Assembly (NCBI RefSeq): GCF_002310375.3
Contig: NZ_CP023315.3
Location: 1,860,001 to 1,924,000, forward strand
Direction of reading: 5' to 3'
DNA length: 64,000 nt
Source: Caulobacter vibrioides
Lineage (GTDB): Bacteria > Pseudomonadota > Alphaproteobacteria > Caulobacterales > Caulobacteraceae
In this document: piece by piece, positions 60,615 to 62,546 of the stretch
Numbering within the stretch: position 1 is the first letter of the stretch
How the letters are laid out: the number at the start of each line of letters is the position of its first letter
Position numbers and translations under genes: made by a program
The notes under the pieces: generated by a model
Databases searched by the model: none
Told to the model about the DNA's origin: nothing
What the model saw: the letters and a program-made list of their open reading frames with translations, nothing else

Positions 60615-61712
60615 TTAGACGTTACGCGCCTGACGGCCCGCGCGCACGGCGTCCGCCAAGGCATCCAGGAGCCGGACCGAGGTGTCCCAGTCGACGCAGG
60701 CGTCGGTGACCGACTGGCCATAGGTCAGGGACTGACCGGGCACGATATCCTGCCGACCCGCCACGAGATTGCTCTCGATCATCACGCCCATGATCGGCGA
60801 CGCGCCGGTCGCAACTTGCGCGCAGACGTCGGCGATCACGGCGGGCTGGTTCTCGTGGTTCTTGCCGCTGTTGGCGTGACTGACATCGACCATGATGCGG
60901 GCCGGCAACCCGGCCTTGGTCAGGACCTCGGCGGCGGCGGCGACGCTGGCGGTGTCGTAGTTCGGGGTCTTGCCGCCACGCAGCACCAGGTGACAGTCGC
61001 CATTGCCGGTCGTGGTGGCGATCGCCGCGCGCCCTTCCTTGGTGACCGCCAGGAAGTGGTGGGGCTGGCTTGCGGCGGTCACGGCGTCGACGGCGATCTT
61101 CACATCGCCGTTGGTGCCGTTCTTGAAGCCGACCGGACACGAGAGGCCTGACGCCAGTTCGCGGTGGATCTGGCTCTCGGTGGTGCGGGCCCCGATCGCG
61201 CCCCAGGCCACGAGGTCGGCGATGTACTGCGGCGTGGTGACGTCCAGGAACTCGCAGGCGGCCGGCAGGCCCTGCGCGCTGACGTCCAGCAGAACGCGTC
61301 GCGCCAGGCGCAGGCCGTCATTGATACGGAAGCCGCCGTCCAGGCCAGGGTCGTTGATCAGGCCCTTCCAGCCCACGGTCGTGCGCGGCTTTTCGAAATA
61401 GACGCGCATGATCACCTCCAGCTCGCCAGAATGGCGCTCGCGTTCGGCCGCCAGGCGGCGGGCGTAATCGATCGCCGCCTTGGGGTCGTGAATGGAGCAG
61501 GGGCCGATCACGACGACGAGGCGATCATCCTGGCCTTGCAGGATCTGATGAACCGCCTGGCGCGCTCCGCCGACGATCTCGGCCACCGACGAGGTGGCCG
61601 GCGCTTCGCCGATAACCTGGGCGGGCGGGTTCAGGGTCTGGAGCTTCTCGATACGCAGATCGTCGGTCGGGACGGGCAGGGTGACGAGTTGGGCGGTGGA
61701 CGTGGAAGGCAT
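60615..61712 (-). CDS. aroG: 3-deoxy-7-phosphoheptulonate synthase, type I (DAHP synthase)
   Basis: First enzyme of the shikimate pathway: condenses phosphoenolpyruvate and erythrose-4-phosphate to DAHP. The 365-residue protein matches the AroF/G/H length and motifs: VVVIGPCSIHDPKAAIDYA, KPRTTVGWKGLINDPGLDG, EFLDVTTPQYIADLVAWGAIGARTTESQ and MVDVSHANSGKNHENQ. The ATG at 61712 has GGAG 8 bases upstream. A leader ORF and terminator upstream indicate attenuation (see the entries at 61750-61891). Confidence 0.95.
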   Translation of the reverse strand: MPSTSTAQLVTLPVPTDDLRIEKLQTLNPPAQVIGEAPATSSVAEIVGGARQAVHQILQGQDDRLVVVIGPCSIHDPKAAIDYARRLAAERERHSGELEVIMRVYFEKPRTTVGWKGLINDPGLDGGFRINDGLRLARRVLLDVSAQGLPAACEFLDVTTPQYIADLVAWGAIGARTTESQIHRELASGLSCPVGFKNGTNGDVKIAVDAVTAASQPHHFLAVTKEGRAAIATTTGNGDCHLVLRGGKTPNYDTASVAAAAEVLTKAGLPARIMVDVSHANSGKNHENQPAVIADVCAQVATGASPIMGVMIESNLVAGRQDIVPGQSLTYGQSVTDACVDWDTSVRLLDALADAVRAGRQARNV

Positions 61713-61749: not shown

Positions 61750-61782
61750 CAAAAAAGCCGCCCGGGAGACCCCTGGCGGCTG
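61750..61782 (-). terminator. Attenuator terminator upstream of aroG
   Basis: On the minus strand AGCCGCC (61781-61775) pairs with GGCGGCT (61762-61756), with an inner GGG/CCC pair, followed immediately by TTTTTT (61756-61751, the first T also closing the stem). It is an intrinsic terminator inside the leader, 37 bases before the aroG start. Its 5' arm can alternatively pair with 61832-61841. Confidence 0.8.
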
Positions 61783-61841
61783 GTGAAGACATTCGATGGC
61801 GCTGATCTCAGGCCAAACGATCCCCTCCCGGCGCCAGAGGC
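61769..61841 (-). promoter_or_regulatory. Antiterminator pairing in the aroG leader
   Basis: GCCTCTGGCG (61841-61832), immediately after the aromatic codons, is complementary (with one G-U and one closing G-U pair) to CGCCAGGGGT (61778-61769), the 5' half of the terminator stem. A ribosome stalled at the aromatic codons would leave this segment free and let it pre-empt the terminator. Inferred by hand pairing. Confidence 0.65.
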
Positions 61842-61891
61842 GTCGGATAGCTAAAATACCAAAAATGCTGTTGGCAGGTGGCGAGGGTCAT
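61808..61891 (-). CDS. aroG leader peptide rich in aromatic residues
   Basis: A 27-codon frame from ATG 61891 to TGA (61810-61808). It begins MTLATCQQ, continues HFWYFSY and ends PGGDRLA. Within seven codons it has TTT, TGG, TAT, TTT and TAT: two Phe, one Trp, two Tyr. The stop lies 26 bases before the terminator stem. A longer in-frame start at 61912 (MCLGSDP) is possible. Expected role: stalling when charged aromatic tRNAs are scarce. No strong ribosome site is seen. Confidence 0.75.
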   Translation of the reverse strand: MTLATCQQHFWYFSYPTPLAPGGDRLA

Positions 61892-61970
61892 CGGGTCAGA
61901 GCCTAGACACATGATGGGTGGATGTCACGCTCCCAAGTTCGTTTTGCGACGCTTGCGGCTTGGGGCGCCG

Positions 61971-62003: not shown

Positions 62004-62318
62004 TTAGGGCTTGGCCGACAGCGCCTTGAGATCGGCGTCGACCTTGGCGACCATCTCGTTGGTGATTTGGCCTTCGGCGTAGGCCTGCAACTCTCGCAGG
62101 CTCATCGACTTGAATTGCTCGAAGGCGGGATGCTTTGCGAGCGTGGGCAGGGTCTTGTCCAGAGCCGCCTTGGCGGCGGGATCGGCGACCACCGACGCTA
62201 GCGGAGTGTCAGCGGAAAAGGCCTTTGCGGCGGCCGCCGCAGGCGGCGGCGAGGCGTTCTGGGCCAAGGCCGGCGTGGCCAGGAGAGCGGCGAGGACGAA
62301 GCCGGTCGCGATACGCAT
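62004..62318 (-). CDS. Small exported protein of unknown function
   Basis: A 104-residue protein with a clear signal peptide (MRIATGFVLAALLATPALAQ, cleavage after the AQ region). The mature part is Ala/Pro-rich, then helical: VADPAAKAALDKTLPTLAKH, SLRELQAYAEGQ and MVAKVDADLKALSA. ATG 62318 with GGAG upstream is chosen over a TTG three bases before. It resembles Caulobacterales small periplasmic helical proteins; no function known. Followed by the UUCG hairpin. Confidence 0.75.
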   Translation of the reverse strand: MRIATGFVLAALLATPALAQNASPPPAAAAAKAFSADTPLASVVADPAAKAALDKTLPTLAKHPAFEQFKSMSLRELQAYAEGQITNEMVAKVDADLKALSAKP

Positions 62319-62546
62319 CAAGGATGCTCCATTTCGAAAGAGGACTCACAGAGGACAGCAGTCTGACGCCTGCGGTCAAGTCCAGCCGTTAAGGTTCGAC
62401 AGGCGGGCGTGGGCAAAGCGACCGTCACGGGAATCGCGCGGAAGCTAGGTAGTTGTGCGTATGCGGCAAACTGTGCGCGGTCGCACGGAAGTCACCGACG
62501 GTTAATCCCTAGATTGAATACCTGTCTCAGGTTTTGAGGGGCGGCC

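Follow-up and report, generated by a model that had tools for sequence, protein, structure and literature searches.

How does Caulobacter vibrioides adjust the supply of its aroG product to the need for aromatic amino acids? The first shikimate step is a main control point of aromatic synthesis, which in Escherichia coli is subject to feedback and to repression by TyrR and TrpR. In the window analyzed here (a stretch of 64,000 nucleotides from a genome of 4,144,051 bases, its nearest contigs in the sequence collection being a MAG labelled CAULO1 and those of Caulobacter species), aroG (60615..61712, minus strand) encodes a type I DAHP synthase of 365 amino acids (PF00793, 5.7e-96; NCBIfam TIGR00034, 2.6e-157). 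A preliminary description had placed an attenuator with aromatic control codons in front of this gene. Conservation, related leaders, covariation and a predicted switch at the end of the codon run supported that reading, and we put the probability that the aroG leader is a ribosome-mediated transcription attenuator, with aroG as the regulated gene, at roughly nine in ten. Computation established the parts of this attenuator, their conservation, their geometry and their covariation, each of which is taken up below.

Layout of the aroG leader

The attenuator parts span 61891-61751 on the minus strand and comprise a leader ORF, a complementary segment and a terminator, in that order. The leader ORF (MTLATCQQHFWYFSYPTPLAPGGDRLA, 27 codons, 61808..61891, minus strand, stop codon 61810-61808) can be read in the same frame, to the common stop at 61808, from either of two ATGs, at 61912 and 61891. 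The preliminary description had taken the first. That start was rejected in favor of the ATG at 61891 because relatives keep only the second, with which the conserved peptide of 36 genus genomes begins (M[T/I]L...), and because 61912 falls inside the spacer of the conserved promoter. The codons TTT TGG TAT TTT AGC TAT (F W Y F S Y; 61847..61864, minus strand) were found within this short ORF at 61864-61847, as claimed; the term “all-aromatic” was a slight overstatement, as five of the six run codons are aromatic and one encodes Ser. An alignment of relatives, which the preliminary description had proposed as a check, found the run kept as TTT TGG TAY TTT AGC TAT in 36/36 genus loci holding this aroG, with synonymous TAT/TAC at codon 12 (21 and 15, respectively) as the sole variation, and found related leaders in several classes. 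Elsewhere in the genus leaders, codons 2 and 4-9 were variable and codons 16-23 nearly invariant. The Phe codons of the run were TTT in 72/72 cases in the genus and 231 TTT and 65 TTC in 95 other distinct leaders, and the aroG gene itself uses TTC five times and TTT not once; slower wobble reading or structure avoidance are guesses at what lies behind the TTT preference in the run. As an exact match, TTYTGGTAYTTY had a single occurrence in the whole genome, at the aroG leader, and a comparison of the 27-amino-acid leader with NCBIfam and Pfam returned no families.

The promoter at the leader consists of a -35 element GTGACA (61923..61928, minus strand, 5/6 to TTGACA), 17 nt, a -10 element TAGGCT (TAnnnT; 61900..61905, minus strand) and 8 nt, followed by the ATG at 61891. 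In 36/36 genus loci, TAnnnT ends 6-8 nt before the leader ATG, and a -35-like hexamer (GTGACA in most; 4-5/6 to consensus) stands 17 nt from it. With this spacing, transcription probably begins on the AUG or no more than a few nt from it (predicted start 61891..61893, minus strand, no further than about 2 nt from the leader ATG), and the aroG leader mRNA is thus probably leaderless. A survey of 128/136 leaders (3 left out for short upstream sequence and 5 as copies) found a TA-type -10 ending 5-10 nt before the ATG in 33/33 genus and 78/95 other distinct leaders, against 6-10/95 in four background windows, and a -35 in 61/95 other leaders versus 1-4 in three background windows; 1/33 genus leaders and 9/95 others had a Shine-Dalgarno core. 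Judged by these sequence features, leaders of the aroG kind look mostly leaderless, as in Sinorhizobium meliloti trpL.

The terminator with six T's that had been reported before the DAHP synthase ATG is present at 61781-61751 (61751..61781, minus strand). Its stem-loop, AGCCGCCAGGGG...GGCGGCT at 61781-61756, has a folding energy of -19.4 to -20.0 kcal/mol, and its six T's (61756-61751) end 38 nt before the aroG ATG at 61712. Segment 2 (GCCTCTGGCGC; 61831..61841, minus strand), the 5' side of the antiterminator, pairs with segment 3 (61771..61781, minus strand), which is the terminator 5' arm and common to antiterminator and terminator; the claim that a segment after the aromatic codons (here 61841-61831) is complementary to the 5' arm of the following hairpin therefore stood. 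A generic consensus scan detected neither the promoter nor the terminator of the aroG leader. The promoter scores 8/12 where the rule asks 9, and the terminator was probably missed for an internal mismatch in its stem; local folding shows it.

We infer the transcription start, translation, stalling, a response to Phe, to Trp and to Tyr, and starvation-induced aroG expression, as follows. Transcription would start at or next to the AUG of the leaderless leader peptide, as the promoter suggests, and a ribosome would load on the emerging RNA 5' end. When Phe-, Trp- and Tyr-tRNA are charged, the ribosome would pass the run F10-W11-Y12-F13-S-Y15 and cover segment 2; with segment 2 covered while the terminator 5' arm emerges, the terminator would form and transcription would end at about 61751. 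When any of the three tRNAs is uncharged, the ribosome would stall in the run and segment 2 would stay free, to pair with the terminator 5' arm before the 3' arm is made, so that the polymerase would read into aroG. A single short run that reports on three amino acids would work as a simple OR gate for the pathway they share, and with the leader placed at the RNA 5' end, leaderless translation would become part of the regulatory device.

The gene directly upstream in the window encodes a small protein of 105 amino acids (62004-62321, minus strand) with a signal-like start, for which no Pfam match was found; a hairpin just past its stop was seen by eye. Downstream of aroG lies a gene for an FMN-dependent dehydrogenase (PF01070; 59269-60447, minus strand).

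Distribution of the leader and its likeness to phe leaders

Leaders were sought by a rule that asked for a Met-start ORF of 12-45 amino acids with at least 3 of 7 codons aromatic, followed by an intrinsic terminator. Leader and terminator were found in 36/36 genus loci and 59/82 other loci versus 7/410 dinucleotide shuffles, and a stricter rule (at least five aromatic residues) retained 49/82 other loci versus 0/410 shuffles. The 82 other loci were drawn from 75 contigs (L007-L081) and 7 loci of a class search; among them, L070 and L124 are one and the same stretch, whose upstream sequence is just 172 nt long, and that of L046 is 189 nt long. The further loci with leaders were mostly alpha-, beta- and gammaproteobacterial and belonged largely to one DAHP synthase clade, and a covariance model (see below) recovered two that the rule had missed (L054 and L118). 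In a phylum sample of the 28 best-scoring loci and 60 hand-chosen among the matches listed, which is tilted to close relatives by those 28, 42/88 loci passed the rule; one of these (L187) looks like chance, and the leaders of L138 and L140 repeat those of L040 and L022. The range of the leader goes far beyond Caulobacterales.

For the DAHP synthase tree, 6 duplicates and 30 genus rows (out of 36) were removed from 212 loci, and the 176 proteins that remained were thinned at 88% identity to 133. A branch with an SH-aLRT of 96 had the leader in 61/70 rows on one side and 8/63 on the other, and the leader label required 12 changes on the tree versus an average of 44.5 for shuffled labels, with L118 scored as “none” here though the covariance model finds its leader. 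Seven of the 8 leader rows outside sit in one group of nine, with leaders like FYFYFWFS.

Some loci in these samples (L017, L030, L036, L040, L044, L047, L059, L138, L145, L155 and L158) carry a Rhizobium-type variant of the leader (...RFYSYRCSQ... or like) with 3-4 aromatic codons per seven and the terminator stem GCCGCTAG; the two tested, L036 and L059, showed weak pairing with segment 2. One contig labelled Mycobacterium sp. KBS0706 (L031, NZ_VCCH02000159.1) has a DAHP synthase that the tree groups with those of alphaproteobacteria and that is preceded by a leader of the aroG kind; this label may be wrong.

The covariance model, R1, was built from 46 aligned DAHP-synthase leaders. Within the C. 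vibrioides genome it gave one strong full-length match, the window leader (110 bits), the next-best match (25.7 bits) covering the terminator part alone; across 299 genomes, 64 had a match at 1e-3. Among the best 50 rows (E up to 3.6e-5), 43 adjoin DAHP synthase, the row in G428 included, where the adjoining gene was identified as such, and 7 lie at pheS or pheA; some of the 43 are in R1 by construction, whereas the 7 phe rows are not. Three of the latter (L262, L263 and L265) precede pheS (TIGR00468) and have a 14-residue leader. The other four (L264, L266, L267 and L268) precede pheA and have leaders such as MKLFPFFFAFFFTFP and MHSSTLFFFGFFFPS; the best family for the gene was NF007910, which in L267 and L268 fell below its cut-off. 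Another of the 14 fetched regions, L270 (E 5e-4), likewise had pheA, with the leader MHTQSLFIFDFFFLP, and no like arrangement was seen at the weaker or partial matches L271 to L275. We take the 14-residue leader of the pheS type and MKLFPFFFAFFFTFP to be the textbook pheM and pheL types. That a model of DAHP-synthase leaders finds those of pheS and pheA hints at common ancestry or a shared constraint of aromatic attenuators.

No family of Rfam release 15 matched at the leader with its gathering score, in the window or at 20 loci with relatives. The sub-threshold match at the leader was ncS54, a published Burkholderia sRNA, with 15.1 bits versus a gathering score of 43. This identity was rejected: the 20 related loci, which include Burkholderiales, held no gathering match at the leader, and the passages on ncS54 in PMC5688073 do not place it at aroG, for which reasons we took the match as a chance terminator resemblance.

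Alternative pairing, covariation and the predicted switch

Pairing between segments 2 and 3 was evaluated in 41 leaders picked by hand. Segments of the same locus averaged -17.7 kcal/mol versus -16.0 when swapped between loci, and same-locus pairing had a median z of -2.0 against shuffled segment 2, with three leaders (L027, L059 and L119) at z above zero, i.e., pairing no better than shuffles. When leaders were anchored on both terminator and leader (91/95 leaders; 56 distinct pairs), antiterminator position +3, the third bp beyond the common core, was paired in 33/56 versus 19.8 +/- 3.1 expected (0/5000 permutations); pairing at positions +1, +2 and +4 to +6 was not significant by permutation of the 56 distinct pairs.

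An alignment of 46 of 68 thinned leaders had the antiterminator helix paired in 85.2% of cells, compared with 82.5 +/- 0.9 in shuffles (2/500 as high) and 18-58 in slid versions. Its covariation score in this alignment was 0.101 versus 0.079 (11/500), and its double-change pairs showed no excess (2 versus 2.6 in shuffles, 46 sequences). The terminator was paired in 91.3% of cells versus 88.2 in shuffles of the 46 sequences and had 11 double-change cells versus 2.5 +/- 1.4 (0/500 as high). Under these controls, all of which leave the relatedness of the sequences in, covariation appears to back the switch in the terminator and modestly in the antiterminator. The check on alternate pairing suggested in the preliminary description came out in its favor, with covariation (stronger in the terminator than in the antiterminator) and a predicted switch that flips near the end of the run.

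By folding, the antiterminator was the minimum-energy structure of 61860-61750 (z -2.9; 0/200 shuffles as low), as well as when the RNA upstream of segment 2 was masked, and a 1:2 protector hairpin appeared in the 118- and 141-nt folds of the leader. At equilibrium and with the whole leader, the antiterminator exceeded 0.5 in just 49/136 leaders (31/36 in the genus), and the window leader reached 0.77 with the ribosome at F10 and 0.01 or less at W11, Y12 and F13. Because equilibrium folding is mostly against the antiterminator in relatives, the switch would have to be kinetic. In a co-transcriptional model, the RNA extends no further than the terminator 3' arm and the ribosome edge lies 12 nt beyond the first base of the A-site codon. 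In this model, pairing of segment 3 of the window leader with upstream RNA was 0.80 at every A-site codon to S14 and 0.60 at Y15, and past the run it was 0.34 at P16, 0.00 at T17, 0.03-0.37 at the remaining codons and 0.04 at the stop; with ribosome edges of 11, 13 and 15 nt, the fall moved by at most about one codon. The antiterminator exceeded 0.5 for some run codon in 129/136 leaders and at the stop codon in 1/136, and the fall came 1-5 codons past the last aromatic codon in 106/129 distinct leaders (at +1 in 27/32 of the genus). Shuffled spacers reached 0.5 in 47% of trials versus an observed 90/101; 24/101 sequences exceeded all 20 of their own shuffles, and 95/101 exceeded the median. 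When the co-transcriptional calculation was run without a ribosome, the window RNA also formed the antiterminator, and no clear 1:2 protector hairpin was seen. As modeled, then, a stall at the control codons would free the antiterminator segment, and completion of the leader would block it.

Were the terminator a constitutive, partial one and the aromatic ORF before it fortuitous, with aroG regulated otherwise, a preference for the terminator at equilibrium in most relatives would fit. Such an arrangement would not lead one to expect leader and terminator together in 36/36 and 59/82 loci versus 7/410 shuffles, nor aromatic identity preserved through synonymous change, nor the detection by R1 of leaders associated with pheS and pheA, and we regard it as highly improbable.

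Known attenuators and the presumed signal at aroG

The proteobacterial attenuators collected by Vitreschak in 2004 are said to belong to branched-chain, His, Thr, Trp and Phe operons, with no DAHP synthase among them. The enterobacterial pheL-pheA and pheM-pheST systems share with the aroG leader an aromatic-codon leader, alternative hairpins and a terminator, but have other target genes and are Phe-dominated. The closest described case in function, going by the passages on it in PMC4046766 and PMC11802643, is Corynebacterium glutamicum aroR-aroF, in which a Phe-Tyr-Phe leader peptide, called aroR, precedes a DAHP synthase gene (PMC4046766) and reportedly answers to Phe but not to Tyr (PMC11802643, citing Neshat 2014). 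The two have in common an aromatic-codon leader before DAHP synthase at which stalling raises transcription; C. glutamicum differs in being an actinobacterium, with Phe-Tyr-Phe only and a response to Phe, and is likened here by description. S. meliloti trpL/rnTrpL, as described in the part of PMC10117765 consulted, likewise has a leaderless leader ORF at the RNA 5' end in an alphaproteobacterium, but is a Trp attenuator before trpE for which a trans-acting RNA and peptide are described. Within the genus itself, the ilv leader of Caulobacter crescentus shares ribosome-mediated attenuation and differs in its Ile and Val codons and its ilv operon; the architecture paper that describes it together with leader peptides (PMC4117421) does not have the word “aromatic” in its main text, nor does the main text of a premature-terminator survey (PMC2965389) have “DAHP.” E. 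coli aroF, which a listing in PMC2659441 gives as an “attenuator sensing tyr-tRNA” (citing Camakaris 1980), would share tRNA-sensing attenuation at a DAHP synthase gene as suggested there. The presumed enteric loci among ours (family code f167: L171, L172, L173 and L199; one paralogue each) had no leader by the rule.

No entry for the aroG leader was found in Rfam, NCBIfam or the papers searched, and a literature search covering mainly openly available papers turned up no account of an attenuator at a DAHP synthase gene of alpha- or betaproteobacteria. The mechanism is best explained as classical attenuation of the kind known from trp, phe and aroR leaders, in a new combination of gene and lineage, with a probably leaderless leader and a control run of three residues. 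It would amount to a widespread RNA alternative at the first shikimate step, and the coordinates give testable predictions in many proteobacteria.

How many amino acids the run would report is a separate matter. In the 13 residues around the run, F, W and Y were all present in 36/36 genus leaders and 61/100 others; of these 100 non-genus leaders, 38 had F and Y without W, and 1 had F and W. A leader responding chiefly to a single amino acid (Phe, like C. glutamicum aroR), with Trp and Tyr codons mattering little, would account for those 38, as it would for Y15 being a poorer stall site in the co-transcriptional model, and it has a precedent in C. glutamicum aroF, which responds to Phe, not Tyr, despite its Phe-Tyr-Phe leader, according to the passage in PMC11802643. 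It accounts poorly for the TGG kept in 36/36 genus leaders and all three residues in 61/100 others, for the interchange of F, W and Y at aligned run positions, and for W11 and Y12, which are full-strength stall sites co-transcriptionally, though not at equilibrium. We consider a mainly Phe-sensing leader unlikely, if far from negligible.

S. meliloti also offers a model in which the chief role of the terminated leader RNA, or of its peptide, is in trans, like that of rnTrpL/peTrpL, with attenuation secondary, as trans roles have been described for both its leaderless attenuator RNA and its leader peptide (PMC10117765 and PMC7298713, each in the part consulted). The near invariance of codons 16-23 in genus leaders would suit such a role; these codons overlap segment 2 and its extension, however, so that RNA pairing can explain their invariance. 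The strong R1 matches sit at DAHP synthase or phe genes, which argues for action in cis, and a leader working mainly in trans thus seems very unlikely.

The C. vibrioides genome holds both a type I and a type II DAHP synthase. At the type II locus (L125, G000:C1:1299338-1300654), no comparable aromatic leader was seen upstream by eye, and the covariance model gave no match. This aroG was found in 36/75 genus genomes (E 1e-150; 34/60 counting good assemblies) and the type II enzyme in 74/75 (60/60 counting good assemblies). Since this genome has aroG in addition to a type II DAHP synthase that lacks such a leader, the attenuator probably tunes an accessory, demand-driven isozyme. Beyond the genus, the type I enzyme was found at 1e-100 in 8/241 genomes of the class, its own genome included, and in 214/397 genomes of the phylum. 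This patchy distribution (8/241 in the class and 36/75 in the genus) suggests possible horizontal transfer of aroG, although the gene tree is midpoint-rooted; a plasmid search returned 85 records at 1e-100, none of them above 80% identity.

A broader history may tentatively be drawn, in which one ancient, usually leaderless attenuator accompanied a DAHP synthase clade through alpha-, beta- and gammaproteobacteria as a partly mobile cassette of gene plus switch, shares common descent with pheL-pheA and pheM-pheST, and in Caulobacter serves as a three-input (Phe, Trp and Tyr) OR sensor on an accessory isozyme. Taken as a whole we find it quite possible but doubtful. With the leader set one can ask whether attenuators travel along with their genes, and whether they pass from one gene to another.

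Two further loci had features of note around their DAHP synthase genes. On an Undibacterium contig (L054, 394-534), leader and terminator are separated from the gene start by about 460 nt of intervening DNA. At L128 (426-619), tandem glycine riboswitch aptamers lie past the DAHP synthase gene on its 3' side, on the opposite strand.
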